Shown here: in pieces, positions 3,078-63,268 of the stretch
Numbering within the stretch: position 1 is the first letter of the stretch
Layout of the letters: every line of letters starts with the position of its first letter
Assembly (NCBI RefSeq): GCF_029223525.1
Contig: NZ_JARHTQ010000040.1
Coordinates: 1 to 63,281, forward strand
Source of the DNA: Streptantibioticus ferralitis
Lineage (GTDB): Bacteria; Actinomycetota; Actinomycetes; Streptomycetales; Streptomycetaceae
DNA length: 63,281 bases
Direction of reading: 5' to 3'
Notes under the pieces: model-generated
Databases searched by the model: none
The model's input: only the letters and a program-made list of their open reading frames with translations
Told to the model about the DNA's origin: nothing
Translations under genes and position numbers: made by a program

Positions 3078-3387
3078 GAGGGGAATCCTTTCACTGTCCA
3101 CGAGAGCGCGTTGCTGTCTCCAGCCTTCCCGCTCCGATGCCCGGATGCGTCCACCTGTGGTGCAAACGGGGTGTACACCTTCCGGTTGACTCCGCCTTCC
3201 GCATACCCCGCAGGTCTGACCCGGAGGGAGGGAGCCACCCCCGGCGGAGGGGGTCTTGCGGCGGACGCGAGAACGCGCCGAATTCGCGGCGTCCGCCGGG
3301 AACGCGGGGCCCGGCGCGGCCGTTGGGACAACTGGGCAAAGGAATCGTCAAGTGGCGTGGCCCGCGCCGGATTGCGCAGGGAGATCC
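3078..3387. other. 310-base divergent intergenic region with candidate promoter
   Basis: Separates the minus-strand membrane protein from terD. GGAAC at 3299-3303 is followed after 18 bases by GTT at 3322-3324. That is one base away from the SigR-type pattern GGAAT-N18-GTT known in Streptomyces, and lies 64 bases before terD. This is a weak match. No gene is seen in the region. Confidence 0.3.
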
Positions 3388-3963
3388 ATGGGCGTCAGCC
3401 TCAGCAAGGGCGGCAATGTCTCGCTGACCAAGGAGGCCCCGGGACTGACCGCGCTCACCGTCGGACTGGGGTGGGACGTACGCACCACCACCGGTAGCGA
3501 TTTCGACCTCGACGCGAGCGCGCTGCTGCTGGACGCGACCGGGAAGGTGCCCTCCAACGGGCACTTCGTCTTCTTCAACAACCTCAAGAGCCCGGACGGT
3601 TCGGTCGAGCACGCCGGTGACAACCTCACCGGCGAGGGCGACGGCGACGACGAGTCGGTCAGGGTGAACCTCGCGGCGGTGGCGCCCGAGGTCGAGAAGA
3701 TCGTCTTTCCGGTCTCGATCTACGACGGCGAGGCGCGCGCCCAGAACTTCGGGCAGGTGCGCAACGCGTTCATCCGGGTGGTCGACCAGGCCGACGGCAA
3801 GGAGCTGGCGCGCTTCGACCTGACCGAGGACGCCTCGACCGAGACCGCGATGGTCTTCGGCGAGCTGTACCGCAACGGCGCCGAGTGGAAGTTCCGCGCG
3901 ATCGGGCAGGGCTATGCCTCCGGGCTCGCCGGGATAGCCGGCGACTACGGCGTACGGCTCTGA
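3388..3963 (+). CDS. terD: TerD-family calcium-binding stress protein
   Basis: 191 residues, the normal length of TerD/TerE/CABP1-type proteins linked to tellurite resistance and general stress, thought to bind Ca2+ in the cytoplasm. The start ATG 3388 has CAGGGAGA just upstream. The hallmark N-terminus [18 protein letters not shown] is present, followed by GLGWDVR, the acidic [13 protein letters not shown] strand and a second acidic loop ([10 protein letters not shown]). FPVSIYDG and the C-terminal [16 protein letters not shown] are also typical. Streptomyces carry many paralogues, so the symbol marks the family rather than a specific orthologue. It is a single-gene unit ended by the hairpin at 3962-3988. 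Confidence 0.93.
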
Positions 3964-4001: not shown

Positions 4002-6050
4002 CTACTCCGCCGCGGGGTGCGCCAGCGCCATGTCGAAGCCGTCCGTGCCCCGGCCCTCCAGGGCGAGCGCGGTGGCCACCGGCGGGTAGCCGCTGGCGAT
4101 GAGCGAGTACTCGCCCGCGGTCAGATCGGTGAAGGCATAGCCGCCGTCGGGGTCCGTGGTGGTGGTGCGGACCACGTTCCCGGTGGCGTCCACCAGGGTC
4201 AGCCGTGCGTCCGCCAGCGGACGGCGGCCCTCCCCGGCGCGTACGGTGCCCCGCACCTGGAGACCGGAGGGGCCGGTGGCGTACGGGAGCGTGATGTCGT
4301 ACATGACCGGGGCGGCCGCCGCCATGACCGTGCACGCCTGCGGCTGATGGCCGTCGGCGGCCGCGATCAGGACGTACGAGCCACCGGCCGGGGCGTCCAG
4401 CGCGTACGAGCCGTCGGGCCGCGAGGAGGCCCGGCCCAGCTGCCGTCCGTCCGGCGAGACGAGGGTGAGGGTGGCCCGGCCCACCGGCTCGCCGTCGGCG
4501 CCCCGCACCAGCCCGTGGAACCCGGCACCGCTCGGCACCGGGCCGCCGGAGACGGCAGCGACCGAAGCGGCGGGGGCCGGGACCGCGGGCTCCGCATCCG
4601 TGGCGTCAACGGCCGTCGCGCCGACCGCGGTTGCCGGGGTGCGTGCACCCCGTCCCGGCAGGAACGCGGCGATCAGCAGCGCCACCACACACGCCGCGCC
4701 CGCGATGACGAAGGACGTGCGGAAGCCGTTCATGGACGGCAACGGCACACCGCCCAGCGGCTGCGTCATATGGGAGAGCACAACACCGATGACCGCGCTG
4801 GCGGTTGAGGTGCCGATGGACCGCATCAACGTGTTGAGGCCGTTGGCGGCCGCCGTCTCCGAGGGCGGTACCGCGCCCATGATCAGGGCGGGCATGGCCG
4901 CGTAGGCCAGCGCGATGCCACCGCCGATGACGGCGGAGACGATCAGGGTCTGCCAGACCGCGTGCACCAGGCCCAGACCGAGCGCATAGCCGATGGCGAT
5001 GACGACGCTGCCCAGCATCAGGGAGACCTTGGGCCCGCGGGCCGCCGAGATCTTGGCGGAGACCGGGCTGAGGAAGATCATCACGATCCCGCCGGGCACC
5101 ACGCACAGTCCCGCGACCACCATGGACTGACCGAGTCCGTAGCCGGTGGCCTTCGGCAACTGCAGCAACTGCGGGAGGACCAGCGACATCGCGTACATCG
5201 CGAAGCCGACGGTGATCGCCGCGAGGTTGGTCAGCAGGACCTGGCGTCGTGCGGTGGTCCGCAGATCGACCAGCGGCTGTTCCATGCGCAGTTCGACGGC
5301 GCCCCAGGCGACCAGGATGACCACCGAGGCGGCGAACAGGCCGAGCGTGGTGCCGCTCCCCCAGCCCCAGTCACTGCCCTTGGAGATCCCGAGCAGCAGG
5401 CAGACCAGGCCCGCGGAAAGCCCGACCGCCCCGACCACGTCGAAGCGCCCCGGGGTGCGGACCGGCGACTCGGGAACGAACAGCGCGGCGAGCAGCAGCG
5501 CGATCGCGGCCAGCCCGGCCGAGCCCATGAACAGCGCGTGCCAGTTGGTGTGTTCCGCCACATAGGCGGCGGCGGGCATGCCGAGCGCGCTGCCGACGCC
5601 CAGGGAGGAGCTCATCAGCGCCATGGCCGAGCCCATCCGCTCGGCGGGCACCTCGTCCCGCATGATGCTGATGCCGAGCGGGATAACGCCCATCGCGCCG
5701 CCCTGCAGGGTGCGGCCGATCACCATCGGCACCAGGTCCGAGGTGAACGCGCAGACCAGCGAGCCGATGATGAGCAGCCCGAGGCTGCAGAACAGGATCC
5801 GCCGCTTGCCGAACATGTCGCCGAGGCGCCCCATCACGGGGGTGGCGACGGCTCCGGCGAGCAGTGTGGCGGTAATCACCCAGGAGGCGTTGGAGGTCGT
5901 GGTGTGCAGCAGCCGCGGCAGCTCGGCGATGAGCGGGACCACCAGGGTCTGCATCACGGCGACGACGATGCCCGCGAACGCGAGCACCGCGACGATCGGG
6001 CCTCCGGTGCGCGGATGCGCGGTGGAGGGCTCGGCTATGGGGGATGACAC
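4002..6050 (-). CDS. MFS drug transporter fused to two Cna-B/carboxypeptidase-regulatory-like domains
   Basis: 682 residues. The first ~475 are a 14-helix DHA2-type efflux permease: helix 1 near residues 18-40, loop-2/3 motif GRLGDMFGKRR near 77, and motif-C-like small residues in the fifth helix region. After an Ala/Pro linker come two beta-sandwich repeats of about 80 residues, each with the signature G-x-V/L-x-D-x-x-G-x-P-(V/L)-x-x-A and S/T-R/D-P-D-G-x-Y (PDGSYALDAPAGGSYVL; PDGGYAFTDLTAGEYSL). Family members normally end after the permease; the extra domains should be at the C-terminal face. The gene is divergent from a marR gene across a 31-base palindrome, suggesting ligand-induced export. 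Confidence 0.9.
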   Translation of the reverse strand: MSSPIAEPSTAHPRTGGPIVAVLAFAGIVVAVMQTLVVPLIAELPRLLHTTTSNASWVITATLLAGAVATPVMGRLGDMFGKRRILFCSLGLLIIGSLVCAFTSDLVPMVIGRTLQGGAMGVIPLGISIMRDEVPAERMGSAMALMSSSLGVGSALGMPAAAYVAEHTNWHALFMGSAGLAAIALLLAALFVPESPVRTPGRFDVVGAVGLSAGLVCLLLGISKGSDWGWGSGTTLGLFAASVVILVAWGAVELRMEQPLVDLRTTARRQVLLTNLAAITVGFAMYAMSLVLPQLLQLPKATGYGLGQSMVVAGLCVVPGGIVMIFLSPVSAKISAARGPKVSLMLGSVVIAIGYALGLGLVHAVWQTLIVSAVIGGGIALAYAAMPALIMGAVPPSETAAANGLNTLMRSIGTSTASAVIGVVLSHMTQPLGGVPLPSMNGFRTSFVIAGAACVVALLIAAFLPGRGARTPATAVGATAVDATDAEPAVPAPAASVAAVSGGPVPSGAGFHGLVRGADGEPVGRATLTLVSPDGRQLGRASSRPDGSYALDAPAGGSYVLIAAADGHQPQACTVMAAAAPVMYDITLPYATGPSGLQVRGTVRAGEGRRPLADARLTLVDATGNVVRTTTTDPDGGYAFTDLTAGEYSLIASGYPPVATALALEGRGTDGFDMALAHPAAE

Positions 6051-6130
6051 GCTTACCGCCTTGAGGTTTCAGGCTCGGGCTCGCTTCAGGCCCGGGGCCG
6101 AGGGGAACGGCCTGGGGCCGACAGAGAGAA

Positions 6131-6161
6131 GTGCATAGTACACATGATGTGTATCGTGCAC
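6131..6161. promoter_or_regulatory. MarR-type operator in divergent promoter
   Basis: A 31-base imperfect palindrome: the perfect core TACACAT-G-ATGTGTA at 6139-6153 is flanked by matching GTGCA/TGCAC ends. It lies 30 bases before the marR start and 80 before the transporter start, the expected place for a shared operator of the MarR protein encoded at 6192. Confidence 0.75.
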
Positions 6162-6191
6162 ATTACCTAGCCGGAAGGAGCGGGAGGCACG

Positions 6192-6784: not shown

Positions 6785-7432
6785 TCAGGCGGCGAGGCGG
6801 CTGACGAGGTCCTTGGCCTTGGTGGCGGCGTCCTCGTGGGCCTTGGCCTTGGAGGCGTCGGCGAGATCCACCAGGTGGGCCGTCGCCGGGTTGCTGCGGG
6901 CCAGGGTCAGCTCGGGAACGATGAAGTCGACCTCAAGGCCGAGCATGCCGTTCAGCACCTTCTCCAGGTAGTTCTGGACGAACTCGAAGCTCTCCCGGGG
7001 GGTGCCGGGAGCGTACGAGCCGCCGCGGCTGGCCACGACGACCACCGGGGTCCCGGCGGCGGAGGGCTTCTCGCCCGAGGTGCGGCCCCTGATGATCACC
7101 TGGTCCAGCCAGGCCTTCAGGGTCGACGGAATCGTGAAGTTGTACATCGGAGCGCCGATTAGGATCGCGTCGGCCTGCTCCAGCTCGGCGGCGAGCTGGT
7201 CACGCAGTACGAACGCGGCGGCCTGCTCGGGCGTGTGCTCATCGGGAGCGGTGAATCCGGCCAGGGCGCCGTCCAGCTCCAGGTGCGGCAGCGGCTCGGC
7301 GGCGAGGTCGCGGTAGATGACCGTGCCGTCCGGGTGCTGCGCCTCCCACTCCTTGCGGAAGGTGGCGGTGACGTCGCGGGACGCGGAGCTCTGCGGGAAC
7401 AGGGACGAGTCAAGGTGCAGCAGCGTGGCCAT
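6785..7432 (-). CDS. azoR: FMN-dependent NAD(P)H azoreductase/quinone reductase
   Basis: 215 residues, the usual AzoR length; a flavodoxin-fold cytosolic enzyme that reduces quinones and azo dyes with NAD(P)H. The N-terminus MATLLHLDSSLFPQSSASR carries the phosphate-binding SSL...SSASR loop for FMN. GAPMYNFTIPSTLKAWLDQV and the ASRGGSYAPGTPRE loop are the other FMN-contacting signatures. ATG 7432 is preceded by GGAGG. It is divergent from an HxlR-type regulator; this pairing is typical of electrophile or quinone-responsive systems where the regulator derepresses the reductase. Confidence 0.93.
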   Translation of the reverse strand: MATLLHLDSSLFPQSSASRDVTATFRKEWEAQHPDGTVIYRDLAAEPLPHLELDGALAGFTAPDEHTPEQAAAFVLRDQLAAELEQADAILIGAPMYNFTIPSTLKAWLDQVIIRGRTSGEKPSAAGTPVVVVASRGGSYAPGTPRESFEFVQNYLEKVLNGMLGLEVDFIVPELTLARSNPATAHLVDLADASKAKAHEDAATKAKDLVSRLAA

Positions 7433-7500
7433 GGGGGTGCCTCCGAAACAAGGATGTTGAAATCCGTACGTCAACTATAGATAGCACACCTACTTACAAA

Positions 7501-7526
7501 ACTGCAGCCCCTGATGTGAGTGCAGT
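7501..7526. promoter_or_regulatory. candidate HxlR operator
   Basis: Inverted repeat ACTGCA (7501-7506) and TGCAGT (7521-7526) with a 14-base spacer, in the 105-base gap between azoR and hxlR and next to an unusually AT-rich stretch. It is placed to overlap both promoters. The half-sites are short, so this is tentative. Confidence 0.4.
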
Positions 7527-7537
7527 AGGATGGGGCC

Positions 7538-7897
7538 ATGGCGGTCCCCCAGGAATGCAGTGCGATCGACCAAGGCATCACGCGGGTGTTCACGCTGCTC
7601 GGCAAGCGGTGGACCGGCGTGATCATCGCCGTACTCATGGCTCAGGGGCGTTCGCACTTCGCTGAGCTGCGACGGGCCATCCCTGGGATCAGTGAGCGGA
7701 TGCTCTCGGACCGGTTGACCGAACTCGCCGGCGCCGGGCTGCTGGTGCGTGAGGTCGACGGGGGGCCGCCGTTGCGGGTGACCTACCAACTCACCGTGGC
7801 GGGCGACGCGTTGGGGCCCGCGATGAGCGAACTTGCCGACTGGGCCGCGAAGCACATGCCGGAAGCGCCGCCGTGTCCGCGCGGCCCTGCCGCGTGA
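7538..7897 (+). CDS. HxlR-family (DUF24) transcriptional regulator
   Basis: 119 residues. It contains an HxlR winged helix: the early cysteine at position 7 (PQECSAIDQG), LLGKRWTGVIIAVLMAQGRSHFAELRRAIPGISERMLSDRLTELAGAGLL, and the wing VTYQLTVAGDALGPAM. The cysteine just before the helix-turn-helix is the position used for redox or electrophile sensing in HypR/QorR-type members (family knowledge). It is divergent from azoR and presumably controls it. The start ATG 7538 has AGGATGGGG upstream. Confidence 0.92.
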   Translation: MAVPQECSAIDQGITRVFTLLGKRWTGVIIAVLMAQGRSHFAELRRAIPGISERMLSDRLTELAGAGLLVREVDGGPPLRVTYQLTVAGDALGPAMSELADWAAKHMPEAPPCPRGPAA

Positions 7898-7925
7898 CGG
7901 ATCCGCGGTCCCGCTTCTCCGGGTC

Positions 7926-8366
7926 CTACTTCTCCGAACGCGTGGCCGTACGGCCGTAGCGCTCCAGGTATTCGGCGAACCGCGACAGGTCCTCCTCTGA
8001 CCAGTCCGCCAGGCGTTCCCGGAACACCGCACGGCGGCTGGCCGCCACCGAGGCGAGCGTCTCGTACCCCAGCGGTGTGGGATGCAGCACCTGTACGCGC
8101 TGGTCGTCCGGGTCCGGTCGGCGCTCGACGAAGCCCAGCTTCTCCAGCGCGGCGACCTGCCTGCTGACCGTGGACTTGTCCAGCAGGTAGTGCGCCGCGA
8201 GATCTGTCGCCCGGCAGCCCTGCTGGTCGGCGAGGTGTGCCAGCAGGGTGAAGGAGACCAGCGAGAGCTCGGGATGCATGCGGGCGGCCGTCGCCCGGGC
8301 GCGGCGCGCGAAGGCGGTCAGTTCGCGTTGGATCGTCTCGACGGAATCATCCCGGCTGGGCGGCAT
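7926..8366 (-). CDS. MarR-family transcriptional regulator
   Basis: 146 residues from ATG 8366. Winged helix: CRATDLAAHYLLDKSTVSRQVAALEKLGFVERRPDPDDQRVQVLHPTPLG at about residues 50-100. It is divergent from the membrane protein at 8450, with a strong palindrome between them. The 3' end faces the HxlR gene across only 28 bases. Likely a ligand-controlled repressor of itself and the neighbour. A longer frame to 8465 exists but would start inside the operator region and lacks a ribosome binding site. Confidence 0.92.
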   Translation of the reverse strand: MPPSRDDSVETIQRELTAFARRARATAARMHPELSLVSFTLLAHLADQQGCRATDLAAHYLLDKSTVSRQVAALEKLGFVERRPDPDDQRVQVLHPTPLGYETLASVAASRRAVFRERLADWSEEDLSRFAEYLERYGRTATRSEK

Positions 8367-8386
8367 GGTGGTTCTCCCTTCAGGTG

Positions 8387-8414
8387 GTTGTATAGTACAA
8401 CGTAAATGTCGTTG
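8387..8414. promoter_or_regulatory. MarR-type operator
   Basis: Perfect palindrome GTTGTA-TAG-TACAAC at 8387-8401, partly overlapped by a second inverted pair CAACG...CGTTG (8398-8402, 8410-8414). It is 20 bases upstream of the MarR start and 36-63 bases upstream of the membrane protein, so it can control both. Confidence 0.75.
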
Positions 8415-8449
8415 CAAAAGCCAACTAGCTACCTTGGGAGGGCCCACCG

Positions 8450-9481
8450 ATGGCCGGGAACACACCGCCGTGCGCGATCCGCCACGTCCTCACCCATCTG
8501 CTGACACCGCTGCTGATGTGCGTCGGCATGGGTCTCGGCTATCTGGGAGCCTTCGGCGATCCGGCGCCGCACCACCTGCCGGTCGCCGTCGTCGGGCAGG
8601 CGCCCGCGCAGCGGGTGATGGCCCAGACCCTCCAGGACAAGGGCGGCGCCGCCCTCGATGTGCGGACCGTCGCGTCCCGCTCCGAGGCCGTGCGGCTCCT
8701 GGCGGACCGGCAGATCTACGGCGCGTACGCGGCCAGCCGTACGGCACCGGAACTGCTGGTCGCCTCGGCCGGTTCCGGCACCAACGCCACGGCCGCCGAG
8801 AAGGTCTTCACGCCCGTCGCCGCCCAGCAGGGCCACCCGCTGAAGGTCACCGACGTCGCCCCGCCCGCGCCGCACGACCCCACCGGGCAGGGGCTGTTCT
8901 TCCTGCTGGTCGCGGTGAGCATCGGCTCGTACGCCTCGGTCGCGGTGATCGGCGGCGCGGGCGCGGTGCTGCCGCTGCGGATACGTGCCCTGCTGGCTGC
9001 CGGGATGTCGCTGGCGGTGAGCGCGATCGGCGCGCTGTTCGCCGGTCCGGTCTTCCATGTCGTCGAGCACGGGCTGCCGGGTGTGTGCGGGCTGATGTGG
9101 CTCTACTCGGCCGGGATCCTGCTGATCGGCACCGGCCTGCACACCTTCCTCAAGCGGTGGACCACGCTCGGGGTGATGGTGCTGTTCGTCATGCTGAACT
9201 TCACCAGTTCGGGCGGCATTTTCCGGCCCGAACTGCAGAACGGGTTCTTCGCTGCCCTGCACGCCTTCTGGAACGGCGCCGGATTCATCGAGGGCGCCCG
9301 TGGCCTGGCCTACTTCGGCAGCCGGGGGCTGAACGGGAACGTGCTCACGCTGGCGCTGTGGCTGGTCGTCGGCCTGCTGGCGGTGACCGCGGCCGGGCTC
9401 ACCGAGAAGCGGCGGCGCGCCGTCGTGGCCGTGCCCGCTGCCGACACCGAGGAGGAGATGGCCGAGGCGGTCGCGGTCTGA
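8450..9481 (+). CDS. ABC-2/DUF3533-like membrane protein
   Basis: 343 residues. Layout: one N-terminal membrane helix (residues about 12-35), an extracytoplasmic domain of about 110 residues, then five helices from about 150 to 320, with an acidic cytoplasmic tail. This is the topology of the YhgE/Pip and DUF3533 group of ABC-2-like permeases. The PVAVVGQ and ASRSEAVRLLADRQIYGAYA stretches in the outer domain also fit. No ATPase gene is adjacent. Under likely control of the divergent MarR protein, so an export or envelope-stress role is plausible, but the substrate is unknown. Confidence 0.75.
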   Translation: MAGNTPPCAIRHVLTHLLTPLLMCVGMGLGYLGAFGDPAPHHLPVAVVGQAPAQRVMAQTLQDKGGAALDVRTVASRSEAVRLLADRQIYGAYAASRTAPELLVASAGSGTNATAAEKVFTPVAAQQGHPLKVTDVAPPAPHDPTGQGLFFLLVAVSIGSYASVAVIGGAGAVLPLRIRALLAAGMSLAVSAIGALFAGPVFHVVEHGLPGVCGLMWLYSAGILLIGTGLHTFLKRWTTLGVMVLFVMLNFTSSGGIFRPELQNGFFAALHAFWNGAGFIEGARGLAYFGSRGLNGNVLTLALWLVVGLLAVTAAGLTEKRRRAVVAVPAADTEEEMAEAVAV

Positions 9482-50464: not shown

Positions 50465-51355
50465 GTGTCCCGAGAGCCGTCCCGTACCGTGCCCCGCGCG
50501 CCCCGCGCGCGATCCCGTACTGCCGCGGTGCTCGCCGCGCTGGCGGCGGTCGCCACACTGTCCGGTGCCGTGCCCGCGCCGGGCAGCGGACACGGCGCGC
50601 CGGTCCGCTATGTGGCGCTCGGCGACTCGGGGGCCGCGGCGCCCGGCGTCCCCGAGCAGATCGACGCGCGGTGCGCCCGCTCCGATCACAACTACCCCTC
50701 CCTGGTGGCCGGGCGGCTGCGCCCGGCGGCCTTCACCGATGTGACCTGTAGCGGCGCCACCACCACCGACCTCGGCGACGCACGACACGGCCAGTTCCAG
50801 GCGCTGTCGAAGCGGACGACTCTGGTCACGCTCACGATCGGCGGCAATGACGTCGGCTTCGCCGGGATCGTCACCAAGTGCACGGCGCTCGGGCTGTTCC
50901 ACCCCGGGGGCGCGTACTGCCAGGCCGCCTACACCCGCGGTGGGACCGACGAACTCGAGACCCGCATCGCCGGCGCCGAACCGAGGATCGCGGGCGCGCT
51001 GCACGCCATCCACCGGCTCGCGCCGCACGCACGGGTGCTGCTCGTCGGCTATCTGCGACTGGTCCCGCTCGACCACCGCGGCTGCCGCCCACGTGAGCTG
51101 TTCGGCGATGGCGACCTGGCGTATCTCGACGCCTTCGAGCGGAACCTGAACGAGATGTTCCGCCGTACCGCGAGGGCGAACGGCGCGGTCTTCGTCGACG
51201 ACCACCCGGCCAGCGCCCACCACGACATCTGCCGCCCCAGCGGCGTCCGCTGGTCCGAGGGCCTCATCCCGACCAGCTCCGCTATCCCCTTCCACCCCAA
51301 CGCACTGGGGGAACGCGCCATGGCGGAGCGGGTGTTGGCCGCCGCCGGACGGTGA
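50465..51355 (+). CDS. secreted SGNH/GDSL esterase
   Basis: 296 residues from GTG 50465 (AGGGAG upstream). Signal peptide about 1-35 with a twin-arginine-poor basic start and AALAAVATLSGAVPAPG. SGNH blocks: catalytic Ser55 in YVALGDSGA, oxyanion Gly in SGATTTDL, Asn in LTIGGNDVGF, and His near the end in AIPFHPNALGERAMA. Three cysteine pairs are likely (for example CTALGLFHPGGAYC). Related to Streptomyces extracellular lipases/esterases. It is the last intact gene before the integrated element. Confidence 0.9.
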   Translation: MSREPSRTVPRAPRARSRTAAVLAALAAVATLSGAVPAPGSGHGAPVRYVALGDSGAAAPGVPEQIDARCARSDHNYPSLVAGRLRPAAFTDVTCSGATTTDLGDARHGQFQALSKRTTLVTLTIGGNDVGFAGIVTKCTALGLFHPGGAYCQAAYTRGGTDELETRIAGAEPRIAGALHAIHRLAPHARVLLVGYLRLVPLDHRGCRPRELFGDGDLAYLDAFERNLNEMFRRTARANGAVFVDDHPASAHHDICRPSGVRWSEGLIPTSSAIPFHPNALGERAMAERVLAAAGR

Positions 51356-51416: not shown

Positions 51417-51578
51417 ATGAACGCTTCCTCGTCCGCCCCGCGCCGCGCCCGTGTCCGTGCTCCCGAGCTGGTGGGAAAGGGCGGCTGGCTCAACACCGGC
51501 GGGAAGCAGCTGTCGCTCGCGGACCTGCGGGGCTCCGTCGTCATCCTCGACTTCCGGAAGTTCACTACGATGCACTGA
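51417..51578 (+). pseudogene. stranded 5' fragment of the thioredoxin/NHL-repeat gene
   Basis: 53 codons, ATG 51417 to TGA 51576-51578. The first 46 codons (APELVGKGGWLNTGGKQLSLADLRG... VVILDF) match the start of the intact gene at 56158 (APELIGKGGWLNTGGKQLTLADLRGKCVVVDF) at about 80% protein identity; then it switches to RKFTTMH and stops. The switch falls in the shared GACTTC core. This is the native gene start cut off by the element; upstream bases (GGATGGCACCCT) are also shared with the intact copy. Confidence 0.88.
51549..51563. other. attL core of the integrated element
   Basis: GACTTCCGGAAGTTC here versus GACTTCTGGACGTTC at 56293-56307 (13 of 15 identical). To the left the sequence belongs to the host gene; to the right it leads straight into the integrase gene 46 bases downstream, as expected for attP'. 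Confidence 0.75.
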
Positions 51579-51587
51579 ACTTCCGGA
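51553..51587. promoter_or_regulatory. inverted repeat before the integrase
   Basis: TCCGGAAGTTCA and TGAACTTCCGGA, perfect 12-base arms around an 11-base spacer. The right arm overlaps the integrase ribosome binding site (CCGGAGGA). It may be an integrase recognition arm, an autoregulatory operator or a leader hairpin. Confidence 0.7.
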
Positions 51588-51594
51588 GGACGCC

Positions 51595-53133
51595 GTGCCC
51601 CATCACACGCTTGCCGACCTGTACCTACGCCTCTCGCTGGACAGGGACGGCAAGACCGCCATTGAGCGTCAGGAAGCCGACTGTCGGGCGTGGGCGGAAC
51701 ACAACGGGCTCACCGTGCGCAAGGTCCACATCGACCGTGGACGCTCCGGCTACAAGTCGGTGACCCGTAAGGGCTTTGACGCCGCGCTCACTGCCGTCAC
51801 GGCTGGTGTCGTCGGCACGCTGTTGGTCTGGAAGCTTGACCGGCTGTCACGCAAGGGCATCGGCGAAGTGGGTGCCGCTCTCGACAGCATCTCTCGTGTT
51901 GGCGGGCGGCTCGTCTCGGTGGTTGACGGTCTGGACACGTCGAACGACAGCGCCCGCGTCACGATCGCTCTGCTCGCTGAGCTTGCCCGCTCGGAGTCCC
52001 GCAACATCGGTACCCGCGCCAGCAACGCCAAGCGCTACCTGCGTTCCAAGGGCCAGTGGATCGGCGGTCAGCCGCCTTACGGTCTTGCGATCGATCCCGG
52101 CACCAAACAACTGGTGCACGACGTCGAGACGGCTGTGTACGCCCGCCTGATAGCGGATGAGGCGCTGGCCGGTACCTCGCTGGTCAACATAGCCAGGCTG
52201 CTCAACAGCCACGAAATAGAGTCTCCGCGCGGTGGCCAGTGGAACGCGGCGAGCATCATGCAGCTTCTTCGGTCTCCCGCGTTCGCTGGGCTGATGCCTC
52301 AGACCGAGTACACCGAAGCAGCGGACGGCACCCGCAAGTACGGCAGTCGTGTTGTTCCGTATCGCGACCCTGAGACGTTGGAAACCGTCTCCATCGGGGA
52401 GGGGATCATCACTGTCGGGGAGCGGGAGCTGATCTCCAAGCAACTGGAGTCGCGAACCTACGCACACGCTGGCAAGCGGCGCCCCAAGCCAGAGGGTTCA
52501 GCTCTGCTGACGGGGCTGATCTTCTGCGGAGTTGCAGGGTGTGGACGCCGCATGCGCCGCGTAGGTGGCTCGTACCAGTGCATGGCGCGCCGAGCGGGCA
52601 ACCAGTGCCCGGGTGCGTCGGCTCTTGCTGAGCTTGTGGACGAGCATGTGACCCAGGCGTTCCTGACACGCCTCCCGGCGCTTGAGCCGGATGACCCGCT
52701 GCTTGCCGCCATTGCGGAGAGGTGGGTGCACCGAGCGGACCCTGAGACGTTCGCCAAGCGGGATGCGATCAGCGCCGAGATCACCGAGGAAGAGGCGCGG
52801 CTAACCGACTTGGAAGACGCCCGTTATGTGCGCGGGGAGTTCACCGGACCGGAAGCTATCGAGCGGTACAACCGCCTTGCCGCACGCCTACGAGGGCGCA
52901 TTGAGGGGCTGCGCGCCAACCTGGCGGAGCTGCCGACACCGGCTGTGGACATCACACATCTGCTGGACGGTGAACTGTTGCGGGAGGCTTGGGAGGACTC
53001 CGAGGTCCCTGGCCGACGGAATCGGCTGACCCTGGCGATGGACCGCGTGCAAGTCAGTAAGGGCAGACGGGGTGCGCGGTTCGTCGGCGAGGAACGCGTA
53101 ACGATCCATTGGGCACGTCGCCGCAGCCAGTAA
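51595..53133 (+). CDS. int: large serine integrase
   Basis: 512 residues from GTG 51595 with CCGGAGGA 4 bases upstream. Resolvase domain 1-150 with nucleophile Ser14 in LYLRLSLDRDGK and TLLVWKLDRLSR; recombinase domain about 160-280 (GGQPPYGLAIDP, LNSHEIESPRGGQWNAASIMQLLRSPAFAGL); zinc ribbon about 320-365 with CGVAGCGRRM and CMARRAGNQC; coiled coil about 400-460 within EISAEITEEEARLTDLEDA... RLAARLRGRIEGL. All parts of an active large serine recombinase are present. No excision factor is recognisable among the neighbours, though a small cargo protein could be one. Confidence 0.95.
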   Translation: MPHHTLADLYLRLSLDRDGKTAIERQEADCRAWAEHNGLTVRKVHIDRGRSGYKSVTRKGFDAALTAVTAGVVGTLLVWKLDRLSRKGIGEVGAALDSISRVGGRLVSVVDGLDTSNDSARVTIALLAELARSESRNIGTRASNAKRYLRSKGQWIGGQPPYGLAIDPGTKQLVHDVETAVYARLIADEALAGTSLVNIARLLNSHEIESPRGGQWNAASIMQLLRSPAFAGLMPQTEYTEAADGTRKYGSRVVPYRDPETLETVSIGEGIITVGERELISKQLESRTYAHAGKRRPKPEGSALLTGLIFCGVAGCGRRMRRVGGSYQCMARRAGNQCPGASALAELVDEHVTQAFLTRLPALEPDDPLLAAIAERWVHRADPETFAKRDAISAEITEEEARLTDLEDARYVRGEFTGPEAIERYNRLAARLRGRIEGLRANLAELPTPAVDITHLLDGELLREAWEDSEVPGRRNRLTLAMDRVQVSKGRRGARFVGEERVTIHWARRRSQ

Positions 53134-53255
53134 GCGACCGGCCCCGGTTGGGAGACGTTCCTGGCAGGGACCCGAGCCCCCCGCTCACGCATGCTGCTGC
53201 GAAATTCAGACCGGGGGGTACGGCTGGTCGTGCGGGTGGTTGTGTCGGGTGTTGC

Positions 53256-54362
53256 CTAGGAGTGCTCCACTTCAGCCATCAGCAGGCGGAGGGTCAAGGA
53301 GTGTTTTTCTGGCGGCAGGGCGTCAAGGGCGGACTGTGCGTACTTCCTGCCGCCCTCCCTGTCGCCAGACTTAGCGAGCATTAGCCCCCGGTGCATCTCA
53401 AGGTGTGTTGCGAACCTGGGGAGCGTTGTCGGAAGTTCTCGTCGTGCTGTCTCTTGTGCTTCGACGGCTGTGGTTTCGTCGCCGAGCCGCGCGGCGAGTA
53501 GCGAGACGAAGACATTCATTCGCCACCACGGAACCGTGTAGTCGGATGTCTGCTCATAGGAACCCGCCTTGTCGAAGACCCGGCGTCCTTTGTCCATGAG
53601 CTTTCGCGCCGTGTCGTGGTCGCCCCGGATCGCTGCGGCATGGGCCTTACCCATGATCGCGTTCAAGAGTCCTAGTGACGGCTTGTTACTGATAGCCATA
53701 GCCTGATCGGCGAGTACGTCAGCGACACCGAGGGAGGCTCCCTCGTAGCCCAGGGCGATTGCCGCCCTCCCTCGCACCCATACTCGGGCTTGCTGGTCGC
53801 CGGACTCGTCAGCTGCTTTCGCTGCCATGCGGTACCACGAAACGGCCTTGGCGCCATCGCTGCCGGGGAACGTCTTGGCATACAGAGTCATGAGCCGTGA
53901 GGCGACTGACCACAGCTGTGGGGTGTCTAGTTGCTGCTGTACGACGACAAGTTCGCCGGAGACACGGCGCTGGATGTCAGCTGCGCCCATGGACATGTAG
54001 TCGGTGCCATAGGCGGCTAGTTTGGCTTCCCAGTCGTCCGTGGACGGGCCACCGGCGAGCCGGGCGCTGAATCCCGCCGTAAGCAAGTCTGACGCGACTA
54101 TTGGAGCTATAGCGGTCGCTGCAACATCACTGATGAACGTTCGGCGCTTCACTTCACCTTCAAGAACGGCTAGCGGGACGTCGAGAACGGCAGACAGGCA
54201 CCGGAGGTAGAACGGCCCCGGCTTCACCTTGGATCGCTCCCAGCCACTCACATATTCCCGGCTAAGGGTGGTCCCAAAAGCTTTGTTGATCTCTGATGCG
54301 AGCCGCCCTTGGCTCCACCCGCGCGCTGTACGCAGGTCCTTGATCAGTTGCCCAATGGCCAT
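53256..54362 (-). CDS. HTH-XRE regulator with TPR-like C-terminus
   Basis: 368 residues, ATG 54362. XRE helix-turn-helix at 1-60: IGQLIKDLRTARGWSQGRLASEINKAFGTTLSREYVSGWERSKVKPGPFYLRCLSAVLDVPL. A short RRTFISDVAATAIAP stretch follows, then alpha-helical repeats to the end (WYRMAAKAADESGDQQARVWVRGRAAIALGYEG...). Streptomyces mobile elements and development use such regulators; TPR repeats may bind a peptide or partner. TTGACC and a TAGTGG box lie upstream. Divergent from the cargo operon, so probably its switch. Confidence 0.85.
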   Translation of the reverse strand: MAIGQLIKDLRTARGWSQGRLASEINKAFGTTLSREYVSGWERSKVKPGPFYLRCLSAVLDVPLAVLEGEVKRRTFISDVAATAIAPIVASDLLTAGFSARLAGGPSTDDWEAKLAAYGTDYMSMGAADIQRRVSGELVVVQQQLDTPQLWSVASRLMTLYAKTFPGSDGAKAVSWYRMAAKAADESGDQQARVWVRGRAAIALGYEGASLGVADVLADQAMAISNKPSLGLLNAIMGKAHAAAIRGDHDTARKLMDKGRRVFDKAGSYEQTSDYTVPWWRMNVFVSLLAARLGDETTAVEAQETARRELPTTLPRFATHLEMHRGLMLAKSGDREGGRKYAQSALDALPPEKHSLTLRLLMAEVEHS

Positions 54363-54475
54363 GGCTCCAGCCTGCCACTACAGGTGCAACTTGTAGGTCA
54401 ACTGAGCGAATTTACGGCGCACTTGCCACTAACCATGACACTAGGGGGTGGGCGCCTCACGCAGACGATCGGGGC

Positions 54476-54739
54476 ATGACGGAGCATCCATTAACTGTCG
54501 TCCCTCGTAACGAGTTGCCCCGCCGCATGGGGATAGCTCGGCGAACGCGTCGGCTGCTCCCCGATGAGGTGGCCGAGGCGCAGCGTGAGCGCTGGGCACA
54601 GACGCCGGATCAAGTGTGGTTCCGGCCGTGGGTGCCGCTGCCTCCCGAAGTACCGCGCGGGCCGTACAAGCGGCCGACACGGGCGTTGGTGCTGGAGATC
54701 GAGGCTGGTCTCAGGAGCGTGCTCGGCGATGACCAGTAG
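54476..54739 (+). CDS. small basic hypothetical protein (element cargo 1)
   Basis: 87 residues. Rich in Arg, Pro and Trp (MGIARRTRRLLPDEVAEAQRERWAQTPDQVWFRPWVPLPPEVPRGPYKRPTRALVLEIEAGLRS). The short GPYKRPTRA basic patch suggests nucleic-acid contact. I do not recognise the family; an excision-factor role is possible by size and position but unsupported. First of four closely packed genes downstream of the divergent regulator; it overlaps the next gene by 11 bases. Confidence 0.6.
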   Translation: MTEHPLTVVPRNELPRRMGIARRTRRLLPDEVAEAQRERWAQTPDQVWFRPWVPLPPEVPRGPYKRPTRALVLEIEAGLRSVLGDDQ

Positions 54740-54923
54740 CAGCTTGACAGCCCCGGCGATCCACGTTCCGGCTCTTGAGCCGGTGCCGGTGGACGGGTGC
54801 GACGTCTGCGGAGCGTTGTCCCGGCAGCGCGAGGCAGCCAGGGCTACCGGCAGCCCGATCACGGTCCGGCAGTGCAGCCAGGAACTTGCCAACCACCCGC
54901 ACAGAAAGACGGAACGGGCATGA
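54729..54923 (+). CDS. small CxxC protein (element cargo 2)
   Basis: 64 residues. PVPVDGCDVCGALSRQREAARATGS contains one CxxC; the C-terminus ELANHPHRKTERA is typical of a small protein group that I recall near HTH regulators in streptomycetes. Function unknown. It overlaps both neighbours (11 bases and ATGA), so translation is coupled. Confidence 0.6.
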   Translation: MTSSSLTAPAIHVPALEPVPVDGCDVCGALSRQREAARATGSPITVRQCSQELANHPHRKTERA

Positions 54924-55117
54924 CGGGGCACCCTTCGGATCCGTTCGTAGGCACCTCGTACGAGGGATCGCCCGAGGGGTGGTGGACGGAGTACGGGGGA
55001 GCGCTGGACGTGAAGTCCGGAGTGGTCCACTTACCCGGTCCGTACCACCCGCCCTGCCTGCGGCGCTGTGGCAGGTGCAGACCGCCCAGCAGCGAGCGGC
55101 AGCCTGCCGTGAGTTAG
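54920..55117 (+). CDS. small hypothetical protein (element cargo 3)
   Basis: 65 residues starting in an ATGA overlap with the previous gene. GTSYEGSPEGWWTEYGGALDVKSGVVHLPGPYH is a Gly/Trp/Tyr-rich stretch, then CLRRCGRCRPP with three cysteines. The cysteine-rich tail may lie beyond the true domain. Not recognised. Confidence 0.5.
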   Translation: MTGHPSDPFVGTSYEGSPEGWWTEYGGALDVKSGVVHLPGPYHPPCLRRCGRCRPPSSERQPAVS

Positions 55118-55325
55118 CCACCTGAACTCTCGTCTCCTGCCGGACGGAAACGGACGGGCTTCCCACTGTTCGAGATCTTGGCGGGGACGGGGTTGAACAC
55201 CCGTCCGCTTCTTCCTCTGCGGTGCGGTACGGGTGCAGTACCCGCCCCGGTTGGCGACTGGGGAGTTTCCGCCGGGGCGGGTCAGCAAGCGCACGGGATC
55301 ACCATCGTCAACGAAGGAGACCCAA

Positions 55326-55787
55326 GTGGACGACGCACGCCAGTTAGTCAGCGACGCCCAGTTTGCGGGCGTGCTGAAGACAGTGCTGGACAACAACCGG
55401 GACATGGCCGCTGACGTGGGCGCACGCATCGTGACGGAAGCGCTGAAGTTCGTGGTGGCCGGTGCGCAGTTCCCGGATGTACCGCTGGCGCCGAGCCGAG
55501 TAGTGGACGAGGGGTGGCACGCCCTGATCTTGCACACTCGCTTGTACGTGGACCTGTGCCAGCGCTTCGGGCCGTTCGTGCACCACTCCCCGGGCTACGA
55601 CCCGACGAACTACGACCCCAAGATCCTCGAACGCACCTGCGCCGTCATCGGAGAGGCGGGCTACTCGCTGGACTCCGCTCTATGGGGCAGCCCCACGAAG
55701 CCCCTGGTGGCGGTGGCTGCACAGTGCCAGCACGCGCCGGAGTGCGCGATCCAGCCGATGCCCGAACCGCGCGATCCACGCGGCTGA
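55326..55787 (+). CDS. hypothetical protein with WHALILHT motif (element cargo 4)
   Basis: 153 residues from GTG 55326 (AAGGAGA upstream). Helical N-terminus, then VPLAPSRVVDEGWHALILHTRLYVDLCQRFGPFVHHSPGYDP. The DEGWHALILHT...Y...CQRFG pattern resembles the conserved W-H-x-x-I-L-H-T motif of glycine-rich-domain (GRDP/DUF1399-like) proteins, whose function is also unclear. C-terminus has CQHAPEC. It is separated from cargo 3 by 208 bases containing an inverted pair CGGACGGG/CCCGTCCG. Confidence 0.65.
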   Translation: MDDARQLVSDAQFAGVLKTVLDNNRDMAADVGARIVTEALKFVVAGAQFPDVPLAPSRVVDEGWHALILHTRLYVDLCQRFGPFVHHSPGYDPTNYDPKILERTCAVIGEAGYSLDSALWGSPTKPLVAVAAQCQHAPECAIQPMPEPRDPRG

Positions 55788-55832
55788 GAAGCACTGCGCG
55801 CGTACGCTGGCCGGAGAGACGGGAGGCACCAC

Positions 55833-56039
55833 ATGGAGTGGATTGACCCCAGGTACGCGCCACTGGTTGAGGAATTCCGTCGCCAGGAGGCCGACGCGCC
55901 CCAGATGCGGTGTCGCCGTTGTGACGGGCGCGGAACGCTGTTTCTGCCCAACGCGTTTGGCGGTACCCGAGTGAAGTGCCCGCCGTGCGACGGTGAAGGG
56001 GTGATGTCGGTACCGTTCCGGGGCTTCATCATGGCCTAA
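55833..56039 (+). CDS. DnaJ-type zinc-finger miniprotein (element cargo 5)
   Basis: 68 residues, ATG 55833 with GGGAGG upstream. Two CxxCxGxG-like motifs at Cys27/Cys30 (CRRCDGRG) and Cys49/Cys52 (CPPCDGEG), as in the zinc centre of DnaJ. No J domain. Probably binds zinc and partner proteins; role unknown. It is followed by a terminator. Confidence 0.75.
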   Translation: MEWIDPRYAPLVEEFRRQEADAPQMRCRRCDGRGTLFLPNAFGGTRVKCPPCDGEGVMSVPFRGFIMA

Positions 56040-56047
56040 GCCCCAAC

Positions 56048-56089
56048 AGCCCCGTCCGTGTGCTGTCCCCCGTGGCGCTGGACGGGGCT
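56048..56089. terminator. hairpin terminator of the cargo operon
   Basis: AGCCCCGTCC / GGACGGGGCT, 10-base perfect stem with a 22-base loop, after the last cargo gene and before the reconstituted host gene. Confidence 0.75.
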
Positions 56090-56157
56090 TCCCTCGTGGC
56101 ACTGCTCACAGCCAGGCCGAACCGGAAGCCTGCAAGCCGGATGGCACCCTTGACCCC

Positions 56158-58005
56158 ATGACCGACGCCTCACCCGCCCCGCGCGCCCGTGCCCGTGTCC
56201 GTGCTCCCGAGCTGATCGGCAAGGGCGGCTGGCTGAACACCGGTGGGAAGCAACTCACCCTTGCCGACCTACGGGGTAAGTGTGTCGTCGTAGACTTCTG
56301 GACGTTCTGCTGCATCAACTGCCTGCACGTCCTGGACGAGCTGCGCGAACTGGAGGAGCGGCACCGCGACACGGTGGTGATCATCGGCGTGCACTCCCCG
56401 AAGTTCGTGCACGAGGCGGAGCACGCGGCGGTGGTCGACGCGGTGGAGCGGTACGGGGTGCACCACCCCGTGCTGGACGATCCCGAGCTGGCCACCTGGA
56501 AGCAGTTCGCGGTACGGGCCTGGCCGACCCTGGTGGTCATCGACCCCGAGGGCTATGTGGTCGCGCAGCACGCCGGTGAGGGGCATGCGCACGCCCTCGA
56601 GAAGCTGGTCGAGGAGCTGGAGACGGAGCACGCCGCCAAGGGCACGCTGCGGCGCGGTGACGGGCCGTACGTCGCACCGGAGCCGCAGCCGACCGATCTG
56701 CGGTTCCCGGGCAAGGCGCTGCTGCTGCCGAGCGGGAACTTCCTGGTCTCCGACTCGACCCGGCACGCGCTGGTCGAGCTGGCGGCCGACGGCGAGACCG
56801 TGGTCCGGCGGATCGGATCCGGCGAGCGGGGGTTTGCCGACGGTACGGCACAGGAGGCGCGGTTCAGCGAGCCGCAGGGGCTCGCGCTGCTGCCGGACGG
56901 TGAGACGGTCGTCGTCGCCGACACCGTCAACCACGCGCTGCGCCAGGTCCGTCTGGCGACCGGTGCGGTGACCACCCTCGCCGGTACCGGAAAGCAGTGG
57001 TGGCAGGGGTCGCCGACGAGCGGAGCTGCGCGCGAGGTGGACCTGTCGTCGCCATGGGACGTGGCGTGGTTCGACGACCGGGTGTGGATCGCTATGGCGG
57101 GCGTGCACCAGCTGTGGGCGTACGACCCGGCCGCCGGCACCGTGTCCGTCGCGGCCGGTACGACCAACGAGGGGCTGGTCGACGGCCCGGCCGACGAGGC
57201 GTGGTTCGCCCAGCCGTCCGGGCTGACGGCCGCGGGTGACCGGCTGTGGATCGCCGACTCCGAGACGTCCGCGCTGCGGTACGTGGGGAAGGAGGACGGC
57301 GGCTATGTGGTCAGGACCGCCGTCGGCACCGGCCTGTTCGACTTCGGGCACCGCGACGGCGCCGCCGAACAGGCCCTGCTCCAGCACCCGTTGGGCGTCA
57401 CCGCGCTGCCGGACGGCTCGGTCGCCGTCAGCGACACCTACAACCACGCCCTGCGCCGCTACGACCCGGCGAGCGGTGAGGTCAGCACGCTCGCGACGGA
57501 TCTGCGCGAGCCGTCGGACGCGGTCGTGGCGGACGGCGACGTGGTCGTCGTCGAGTCCGCACGGCACCGGCTGACCCGGCTGCGGCTGCCGGAGGAGGCG
57601 GTACGGGTGGCGGGGGCCGCGCACCGCACCCAGCGGCCCGCGACCGAAGTGGCGTCCGGACGGCTCCGGTTGGACGTGGTCTTCACCGCGCCCACCGGCC
57701 AGAAGCTCGACGAGCGCTACGGACCCTCGACCCGGCTTCTGGTCAGCTCCACCCCGCCGGAACTGATCGCCTCCGGCGACGGCAAGGGCACGGACCTGAC
57801 CCGCGACCTCGTCCTGGACGCCTCGGTCGGCGAAGGCGTACTGCACGTCTCCGCGATGGCCGCCTCCTGCGACGACGACCCGGACAACGAGTACCCGGCC
57901 TGCCATGTCCACCAGCAGGACTGGGGGGTTCCGGTCAAGCTCACGGAGAACGGCGCGACCCGGTTGCCACTCGTACTGGCGGGAATGGACGAGGACGGTG
58001 CGTGA
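56158..58005 (+). CDS. thioredoxin-domain and NHL-repeat protein (target gene, reconstituted)
   Basis: 615 residues. Residues 20-160 are a TlpA-like thioredoxin domain with Cys52-I-N-Cys55 in WTFCCINCLHVLDELRELEERH. Residues about 180-500 hold NHL beta-propeller repeats (LPSGNFLVSDSTRHALVELAADG, LLPDGETVVVADTVNHALRQV, LPDGSVAVSDTYNHALRRY). A C-terminal beta domain has a CDDDPDNEYPACHVH segment. No signal peptide, so cytosolic. The first ~46 codons and the promoter come from the integrated element and differ from the stranded native start at 51417; the rest is chromosomal. The frame is intact across the junction at Asp46. Confidence 0.9.
   Translation: MTDASPAPRARARVRAPELIGKGGWLNTGGKQLTLADLRGKCVVVDFWTFCCINCLHVLDELRELEERHRDTVVIIGVHSPKFVHEAEHAAVVDAVERYGVHHPVLDDPELATWKQFAVRAWPTLVVIDPEGYVVAQHAGEGHAHALEKLVEELETEHAAKGTLRRGDGPYVAPEPQPTDLRFPGKALLLPSGNFLVSDSTRHALVELAADGETVVRRIGSGERGFADGTAQEARFSEPQGLALLPDGETVVVADTVNHALRQVRLATGAVTTLAGTGKQWWQGSPTSGAAREVDLSSPWDVAWFDDRVWIAMAGVHQLWAYDPAAGTVSVAAGTTNEGLVDGPADEAWFAQPSGLTAAGDRLWIADSETSALRYVGKEDGGYVVRTAVGTGLFDFGHRDGAAEQALLQHPLGVTALPDGSVAVSDTYNHALRRYDPASGEVSTLATDLREPSDAVVADGDVVVVESARHRLTRLRLPEEAVRVAGAAHRTQRPATEVASGRLRLDVVFTAPTGQKLDERYGPSTRLLVSSTPPELIASGDGKGTDLTRDLVLDASVGEGVLHVSAMAASCDDDPDNEYPACHVHQQDWGVPVKLTENGATRLPLVLAGMDEDGA
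56293..56307. other. attR core of the integrated element
   Basis: GACTTCTGGACGTTC, matching the attL core at 51549-51563 with two differences, encoding DFWTF of the target protein. Left of it is element sequence that imitates the gene; right of it is chromosome. Confidence 0.75.
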
Positions 58006-62296: not shown

Positions 62297-63268
62297 ATGC
62301 CTGCCGTGACCGTAGAGAACCCGCTGACCCTGGCGCGCGTCGCGGCGCCCGCCGGGGCCGTGAGCCGACCGGTGCTCGCCGTGTCCACCGCCCCCAGCGG
62401 TTTCGAGGGCGAGGGTTTCCCCGTCCGCCGCGCTTTCGCGGGCATCGACCACCGGCACCTCGACCCGTTCATCATGATGGACCAGATGGGTGAGGTGGAG
62501 TACGCCCCGGGCGAGGCCAAGGGCACTCCGTGGCACCCGCACCGCGGCTTCGAGACGGTGACCTATCTGATCGACGGCACCTTCGTGCACCAGGACTCCA
62601 ACGGTGGCGGCGGTGTCATCAACGGCGGCGACACCCAGTGGATGACCGCGGGCAGCGGTCTGCTGCACATCGAGGCCCCGCCGGAGGAACTCGTCGTCAG
62701 CGGCGGCCTGTTCCACGGCCTCCAGCTGTGGGTCAACCTGCCGCGCGAGCACAAGATGATGCCGCCGAGGTACCAGGACATCGACGGCGGCCGGGTCACG
62801 CTGCTGACCTCCGCGGACGGCGGCGCACTGCTGCGGCTGATCGCCGGCGGCATCGCGGGTCACCGCGGTCCGGGCATCACCCACACCCCGATCACGATGC
62901 TGCACGTGTCGCTGAACCCGGGCGCGCAGCTCACCCTCCCCTGGCGGTCGGACTTCAACGCGCTGGCCTACGGCCTGGCGGGACGCGGTCTGGCGGGCGC
63001 GGAGGAACGGCCGTTCCGCACCGGCCAGACGGTGGTCTTCGGGCAGGTCGGCAGCGCCTCCGGCGACGCGCTGACCCTGCGGGCCGACGCCAGCCAGGAG
63101 TCGCGCAGCCCCAACCTAGAGGTGGTACTGCTCGGCGGCCTGCCGATCCGCGAGCCGATGTTCCACTACGGCCCGTTCGTGATGAACAGTCACGCGGAAC
63201 TGGCCCAGGCCTTCGAGGACTTCCAGGCCGGACGGCTGGGCAGGATCCCGGCCACGCCCCGGACGTGA
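62297..63268 (+). CDS. pirin family protein (phiC31 attB gene)
   Basis: 323 residues, bicupin. Metal ligands His80 and His82 (WHPHRGFETVTYLI), His124 and Glu126 (LLHIEAPPE) are all present. Some pirins are quercetin dioxygenases; others bind regulators; role here unknown. ATG 62297 follows GAGGAGG. The DNA for APGEAKGTPW (62503-62536) resembles phiC31 attB, which in Streptomyces coelicolor lies in a pirin homologue. The window ends 13 bases after the stop. Confidence 0.93.
   Translation: MPAVTVENPLTLARVAAPAGAVSRPVLAVSTAPSGFEGEGFPVRRAFAGIDHRHLDPFIMMDQMGEVEYAPGEAKGTPWHPHRGFETVTYLIDGTFVHQDSNGGGGVINGGDTQWMTAGSGLLHIEAPPEELVVSGGLFHGLQLWVNLPREHKMMPPRYQDIDGGRVTLLTSADGGALLRLIAGGIAGHRGPGITHTPITMLHVSLNPGAQLTLPWRSDFNALAYGLAGRGLAGAEERPFRTGQTVVFGQVGSASGDALTLRADASQESRSPNLEVVLLGGLPIREPMFHYGPFVMNSHAELAQAFEDFQAGRLGRIPATPRT
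62503..62536. other. phiC31-type attB site inside the pirin gene
   Basis: Compared with the minimal 34-base phiC31 attB as I recall it, in reverse complement, 28 of 34 positions agree, including the central CCAAGGGCAC with the AA (TT) crossover dinucleotide. The flanks are not interrupted, so the site is empty. Confidence 0.7.

Follow-up and report, generated by a model that had tools for sequence, protein, structure and literature searches.

The SXT integrative and conjugative element (ICE) and the dusA-specific islands use tyrosine integrases, and the enzyme of SPbeta is a large serine recombinase. Insertion that gives a protein gene a new start is already known for SXT at prfC and for the dusA islands, as described in a passage of one report (PMC8409611). 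SPbeta in spsM and skin in sigK lie inside a coding gene and use large serine recombinases (PMC4191935 and PMC5025042), and their genes are restored by excision. It is stated in part of a review that the integration of integrative and mobilizable elements (IMEs) with serine recombinases disrupts dispensable genes (PMC5704250). Here, we describe an element in a 63,281-nt stretch of DNA from Streptantibioticus ferralitis (the window; contig C45 in an 8.8-Mb genome), which is very probably a serine-integrase element that carries a copy of the 5′ end of its own target gene, a thioredoxin-NHL gene, with attP inside this copy, and that exchanges one start of this gene for another. In contrast to SPbeta and skin, the gene would be restored by integration itself. 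The exchange of starts, its recurrence, the empty sites, the position of the crossover, the double use of codons as attP and the swapped starts without integrase are all apparent from the comparison of sequences.

The likeness to the SXT ICE at prfC and to the dusA-specific islands (IMEVchUSA3) is that the element appears to supply a new upstream region and N-terminus, with the frame restored. Unlike in those systems, the enzyme is here a large serine integrase, the attP half-site doubles as coding sequence, the integrase gene lies directly behind the exchanged start, and repeated swaps and scars are seen. An earlier note on this DNA had considered the repair of a start by a serine integrase unusual; replacement of the start of a protein gene is in itself known, from the same passage on SXT/prfC and dusA (PMC8409611), while no serine-integrase case was found in the literature searched, which was mostly open. 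A survey that predicted sites for 6,207 recombinases has neither "thioredoxin" nor "NHL" in its main text (PMC10083194), though its supplementary tables may list this integrase. The integrase has the same architecture as the phiC31, Bxb1 and phiJoe-type enzymes, with Resolvase (1.2e-25), Recombinase (1e-9) and Zn_ribbon_recom (3.8e-6) domains of Pfam, all three above the cut-off, and it matched phrog_95 (integrase) of PHROGs at 5.3e-82; the domain search thus placed it in the serine class and not with the tyrosine integrases of the SXT/prfC and dusA type. Elements at the phiJoe site, according to a passage on them, sit near the end of an open reading frame (ORF), unlike the present element, and copies with recombination genes only have also been described there (PMC5311408). 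Origins of the integrase from a phage or a plasmid were considered and rejected: tblastn gave matches in 648 of 50,697 phage records and in 108 of 72,556 plasmid records, every one under 60% identity. Among the 15 listed in each case, the highest identity was 31.7% for phages, which also sets the enzyme apart from the phiC31, Bxb1 and phiJoe type, and 29.1% for plasmids. The scan of IMG/VR, which finds close relatives only, gave no relative of the integrase. The features of the locus are as follows.

51417–51578, + strand: stranded native start of the thioredoxin-NHL gene; 44 codons to the core, 9 more, then stop
51549–51590, + strand: attL, native B half-site (left) joined to the integrase-side half-site; crossover 51555–51556 = CG
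51555–56298, no strand assigned: integrative element of 4744 bp (core to core); comparison of 33 loci puts the crossover at the dinucleotide that follows GAYTTY
51595–53133, + strand: large serine integrase; GTG start behind GGAGG, 16 nt after the stop of the leader
56050–56157, + strand: element-borne upstream region (putative promoter), resembling the region 5′ of the working gene of congeners
56158–56298, + strand: element-borne start of the thioredoxin-NHL gene, joining the core at 56293
56293–56330, + strand: attR, element half-site (left) joined to the host B′ half-site; crossover TG at 56299–56300
56158–58005, + strand: restored thioredoxin-NHL gene, 615 aa, with Pfam Thioredoxin_8 and NHL
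50468–51355, + strand: host gene upstream (left flank), GDSL-type lipase/esterase, Pfam Lipase_GDSL_2 at 4.7e-24

The frame that opens at 51417 reads MNASSSAPRRARVRAPELVGKGGWLNTGGKQLSLADLRGSVVILDFRKFTTMH and closes with a TGA stop at 51576–51578; its native codons reach the core GACTTC, after which the reading runs into the element. The second start lies 4744 nt further on, start to start, and the frame from 56158 is uninterrupted over 615 residues. The sequence GGATGGCACCCT is common to the DNA ahead of both starts, positions 51443–51532 and 56187–56276 are 86% identical over 90 nt in the repeat analysis, and the starts are 75% identical across the last 114 nt before the core. These data confirmed what the earlier note had read from this locus, namely that the native start is stranded at 51417 and the gene resumed 4.7 kb on, at the core at 56293, that a second, similar start with shared upstream sequence precedes the resumed gene, and that the 615-residue protein is restored with a swapped N-terminus. 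The core sits just 5′ of the CCINC motif of the gene, and the last ~40–50 nt of the element-borne start (about 56250–56298) are coding sequence and attP half-site at once. The restored product is NHLRC2/SOQ1-like, with matches to plant SOQ1 (PDB 7djj, 8.4e-99) and human NHLRC2 (6gc1, 1.7e-73).

Relatives of the integrase were found at 40 loci among the genome contigs searched, in Streptomyces, Kitasatospora, Streptacidiphilus, Actinacidiphila and Micromonospora, plus one gut bacterium at 27% identity. The gene body lay downstream of the integrase in 34 of the 40 loci, as judged by tblastn, and both starts were present in 20. Five loci had the upstream start only and one (L043) had neither; of these five, L005 and L018 run to the contig end, longer stretches (L124 and L136) completed L012 and L040, and in L033 the gene body was not seen in the DNA examined. 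On the other hand, among 40 B-arm loci without integrase, which are a selection from among the matches listed, 39 had no second start, the exception being L154. The doubling of the start is more than chance because it recurs in 20 of 40 loci with the integrase while a single start is found in 39 of 40 loci without it. In a sample of 394 genomes of the family, 30, including that of the window, had an integrase match at E ≤ 1e-80; in two of them (L071 and L072) the integrase was ~40% identical and there was no thioredoxin-NHL gene within 1.5 kb, nor was the gene seen within this distance in L066. The choice of target is claimed only for integrase relatives at about 55% identity or more. The elements span about 1.8 to 17 kb, and the distance from the integrase end to the second start ranges from 77 bp (L026) up to about 15.5 kb (L124), so that the word "compact", used before for the window copy, does not describe the family.

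The question of which start is native was approached through loci without the element. The occupied loci L014 and L136 align to the element-free L152 up to the core and onward, with nothing between. The start of L152 was 95% identical in its body and 100% in its arm to the stranded start of L014, versus 84% and 56% to its element start; similarly, the empty L158 matched the stranded start of L132 at 97% and 96%, versus 87% and 59% for the element start. The arm of the empty site was nearer to the stranded start in eight of nine occupied/empty pairs; in the ninth, that of L124, the partner (L107) is a scar in its own right. The body was nearer to the stranded start in six of the nine pairs. The precise empty sites bear out the proposal that entry of a serine-integrase element gives the gene a new 5′ end and a new upstream region with the frame kept. 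The empty sites which the earlier note had asked for were found in other genomes (L152), while inside the genus of the window no clean one was seen.

To define the crossover, 59 loci were entered into the core search, of which 58 had an integrase match (L042 was dropped); removal of nine duplicates left 49 loci, and 33 of them had both cores and enough upstream sequence. In 27 of the 33, the integrase was near-complete and the stranded start could be recognised. When attP was rebuilt for the 33 loci from the left part of attR and the right part of attL, it was symmetric on average about the dinucleotide after GAYTTY, with a mean of 12.7 of 22 pairs, compared with at most 8.1 pairs at 24 other centres. 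Such near-symmetry of attP about the central dinucleotide is a general property of serine integrases, and a roughly symmetric attP is a further likeness to the phiC31, Bxb1 and phiJoe type. The dinucleotide in attL was TG in 31 of the 33 loci, in a search that took TG or CG only, and CG in the window and in L140, where the left side is degenerate. Serine integrases require identical central dinucleotides. Because attL of the window has CG and attR has TG, the window copy is predicted to be unable to excise; the single change from TG to CG at 51555 should lock this element in place.

According to the proposed mechanism, recombination would take place at the dinucleotide (normally TG) in the Asp-Phe-Trp codons, just before Cys-Cys-Ile-Asn-Cys. 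The chromosomal gene would receive the upstream region, the start codon and the first ~45 codons of the element, the native upstream region and start would land directly ahead of the integrase gene, and the host protein would remain whole after integration. The integrase would be transcribed from whichever start precedes it, the native one if integrated and the element-borne one if circular.

The two parts of the element-borne start differ in what they track. Its last 27 coding nucleotides (the arm) tracked the integrase across the 27 loci with a Spearman coefficient of 0.79, and with the host taken into account the partial correlation was 0.76 and 0.78 in two analyses (p 0.001 for 0.78). The first part tracked the host at 0.70, with partial values of 0.59 and 0.65 in two analyses (p 0.001 for 0.65), and its correlation with the integrase was weaker (partial 0.30 and 0.27). 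A sliding comparison placed the switch of affinity 40–50 nt before the core. The partial correlation of the stranded start with the integrase was never above 0.27. Third-position GC content (GC3) of the arm was 0.50 in element starts versus 0.83 in native ones, and upstream of the arm 0.75 versus 0.78; the low GC3 is thus concentrated in the last nine codons, where the attP half-site lies. In the window gene, GC3 is 0.89 in the native start, 0.74 in the element start and 0.92 in the remaining gene. The earlier view of the element start as less GC-rich and foreign in origin is therefore only partly upheld: the lower GC3 of the window start (0.74 versus 0.89) stands, but across the 27 loci it belongs to the last nine codons, and the last ~40–50 nt track the integrase while the upstream part tracks the host lineage. 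We infer that the low GC of the arm reflects the half-site of the integrase rather than foreign codon use. The starts were also more alike within a locus than between loci (0.825 versus 0.742, permutation p 2e-4), and the borrowed start may have been refreshed through homologous recombination with host genes.

The element start was intact in 33 of 33 loci, while the stranded start was degenerate in six of 33, as tested over 38 codons. The ratio of nonsynonymous to synonymous change (pN/pS), measured against the nearest of 59 integrase-free reference genes, came to 0.26 in the element start and 0.34 in the stranded one; the value among the references, which themselves include swapped starts (L075, L076, L079 and L084), was 0.28. 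These values, together with the intactness, would fit a working restored gene. The small decay of the stranded start fits either a recent origin or continued use. In all 27 loci the integrase start lies 45–61 nt past the core start, a distance that could hardly accommodate a separate promoter, and hence the integrase is probably transcribed from the start ahead of it. In part of a study of SigR, the consensus is given as GGAATN18GTT, and a motif search there gave GGAATN16,19GTT (PMC2375139). The motif GGAA[TC]-N17-20-GTT was present ahead of nine of the 27 native starts and eight of the 27 element starts, whereas shuffles expect 0.04 and 0.09 loci, respectively. These cases are confined to ten loci: a single genus of the sample, to which K. 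griseola belongs, accounts for nine, and Streptacidiphilus for the tenth. At neither start of the window was the motif found upstream, and a promoter sought there by eye led to no claim. In the loci with the motif, the integrase could be under SigR control.

Swapped starts were also found where the integrase is absent. The K-type arm pattern, searched with up to two mismatches, occurred in 39 of the 394 genomes, 18 with and 21 without the integrase. Among the latter (P-arm genomes), the DNA examined showed a stranded second start in five, an integrase fragment in one and neither in 15; the arm had the GGTAAG form in 17 and a GC-rich GGC version in four, and these four may be native. The DNA on the esterase side is resembled in both congeners, G001 and G002. 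In G002, about 12 codons of a native start, which the stranded start of the window resembles, adjoin the same esterase, and are followed by an upstream region and a start of element type, the arm of which is native in type, while G001 has 3.8 kb of other DNA at the corresponding place. The upstream region and first codons of the window element resemble the working gene in both congeners, with the upstream region 83% identical to G002 over 109 nt and 89% to G001 over 72 nt. Integrase-free relatives with both starts had been named in the earlier note as evidence that would speak against an element; they do occur (G002, five of 21 P-arm and one of 40 B-arm genomes), and they are read as scars because integrase-bearing copies and empty sites coexist with them. 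Hence, swapped starts without integrase, those of both congeners among them, are probably scars. In L023 and L139 the stranded start has a K-type arm and the element start is R-type, as if these sites had been swapped once before. An integrase-free scar with both starts was also noted in L113 (6529–7908), together with an ORF that looked Fic-domain-like by eye.

The recurrence, the empty sites, the crossover position, the split ownership of the element start, the intactness of starts, the spacing of the integrase and the serial swaps are the reasons for preferring an element that exchanges starts. Several observations weigh against this view. The symmetry of attP was higher at another centre than at the core dinucleotide in L027, L039 and L140, with ties in L129 and L136; the 31:2 count of TG to CG is conditional on the two dinucleotides allowed in the search; the 33 loci are related to one another and so not independent; and the CG in attL of the window rests on one assembly. 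In 14 of the 40 integrase loci tblastn gave no stranded start but the downstream start alone, and among the 20 loci with two starts the integrase is broken in L034 and a fragment in L042. The body of the empty-site start was nearer to the element start in L131, L028 and L124. The 40 nt upstream of the empty start, in an ungapped comparison, were nearer to the element's in five of nine pairs (L136, L137, L131, L016 and L028), and for this reason the upstream 40 nt do not settle which start is native. Inside the genus there is no clean empty site, and both congeners lack the integrase yet have an element-like upstream region and start. The distance from the nitrilase gene to the thioredoxin-NHL gene was tried as a test for scars and dropped: it could be measured in 11 of the 21 P-arm and 19 of the 40 B-arm genomes, and the two groups overlapped and were not separated by it.

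Other explanations can be set against the same data. The second start could be a segmental duplication of the gene 5′ end, with the integrase caught between them accidentally or carried along as a passenger, as the 86% identity of the starts over 90 nt and the two-start genomes without a detected integrase might suggest. This is extremely improbable, however, given that the break falls at the same core in 33 loci with attP symmetry peaking there on average, that the integrase start keeps its spacing of 45–61 nt from the core in all 27 loci and the element arm tracks the integrase, and that 39 of 40 integrase-free B-arm loci have no second start. An element that merely disrupts the gene, leaving the downstream frame and its new start functionless, would agree with the review statement on IMEs with serine recombinases (PMC5704250, in part), but the intact element start in every one of the 33 loci, its pN/pS of 0.26 near the 0.28 of the 59 references (some of them scars), and the lineage-specific motifs upstream of both starts make it very unlikely.

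Two further alternatives concern parts of the proposed history and are less remote. The element start could be host-like through vertical inheritance with the host and not through recombinational refreshing; distances between integrases correlate with those between hosts at about 0.50, each of the three genomes of the genus shows an insertion or a scar at this place, and a start's own partner was its best match in 9 of 27 loci only. This explanation has a real though minor chance, since the arm and body of one element start track different partners, and in 89 of 351 pairs the integrases resembled each other more closely than the host proteins did (a frameshift in the host gene of L020 increases its host distances and inflates the pairs that include it), as for L021 and L024 with 98.0% versus 85.7%. 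Similarly, the integrase-free swapped starts could be natural host variants that resemble the attP arm, as four of the 21 have the GC-rich GGC version, which a host could evolve, some natives encode KCVL-type arms, and in 15 of the 21 the DNA examined shows no second start and no integrase fragment. The GGTAAG form in 17 of 21, the stranded start kept in five and the integrase fragment in one argue for scars and render host variants unlikely, somewhat more so than vertical inheritance.

If the element does exchange starts, it illustrates how a conserved protein gene can house a serine integrase and yet escape destruction, which runs counter to the expectation, expressed in part of the review (PMC5704250), that serine-recombinase IMEs disrupt dispensable genes. 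It would be a natural example of one DNA stretch that is both a coding sequence and a recombination site, and it suggests a route by which a mobile element could overwrite a core gene's promoter and N-terminus again and again. A broader interpretation is tentative and somewhat short of an even chance: every integration would trade promoters between the host gene and the integrase, the control of the thioredoxin gene would always govern the integrase and be SigR-like in Kitasatospora-like hosts, and scars would have replaced the native start in many lineages. With SigR-like control in Kitasatospora-like hosts, thiol stress could trigger movement. The locus offers a direct test of whether the host promoter controls the integrase of the element, and the integrase with its predicted attP/attB pair is on offer for actinomycete genetics.

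The cargo of the window copy, between the integrase and the element-borne upstream region, consists of shorter ORFs at 54.7–55.2 kb, which lie outside the family scan, and four that were scanned:

53256–54362, − strand: HTH/TPR-type regulator, Pfam HTH_31 at 2.2e-7
54476–54739, + strand: small ORF, 87 aa, no family match
55326–55787, + strand: ORF, 153 aa from its GTG, no family match
55833–56039, + strand: small cysteine-motif ORF, 68 aa; Pfam DnaJ_CXXCXGXG at 2.6e-4, below the cut-off (weak zinc-finger resemblance)

The regulator matched the NsdA family of NCBIfam at 1.9e-13, under the cut-off of that family, and has a homologue in the L008 element; the 153-aa ORF has relatives at 30–34% identity in L021, L042 and L122. 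Actinomycete ICEs are marked by an FtsK/TraB-type transfer protein and Rep. Neither was found in the four scanned ORFs, nor was a phage structural gene, apart from a weak match of the 68-aa ORF to phrog_1004 (1.1e-4). No relaxase family turned up among the cargo proteins covered by three of the scans, and no search aimed at a relaxase or oriT was made. In the sister elements, 31 of 117 predicted cargo ORFs were scanned against families, and some of these members carry defence genes or look satellite-like: L137 (G125) has a CBASS cyclase with a 2TM effector at 2178–3583, L129 (G133) has a Thoeris ThsA macro-domain protein adjoining a TIR-domain protein at 2046–3897, L131 has a D5-type primase at 7100–8482 as well as a PD-DExK nuclease, and L132 has a major capsid protein at 4973–6169. 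None of the primase, capsid, CBASS and Thoeris genes was found in the window copy. Such genes are a likeness to phage satellites and defence islands, and the primase of L131 and the capsid protein of L132 suggest a link with phage satellites.

L026, L029 and L035–L038 are near-empty copies, with 77–180 bp between the integrase match and the second start. A small ORF just 5′ of the element-borne start is common to L004, L006, L007, L020, L022, L023, L126 and L139 and was identified as DUF7848 in L004; its position would suit a candidate directionality factor. Outside the element, the gene at 62297–63268 of the window looked pirin-like by eye; the target of phiC31 in S. coelicolor is reportedly a pirin gene.

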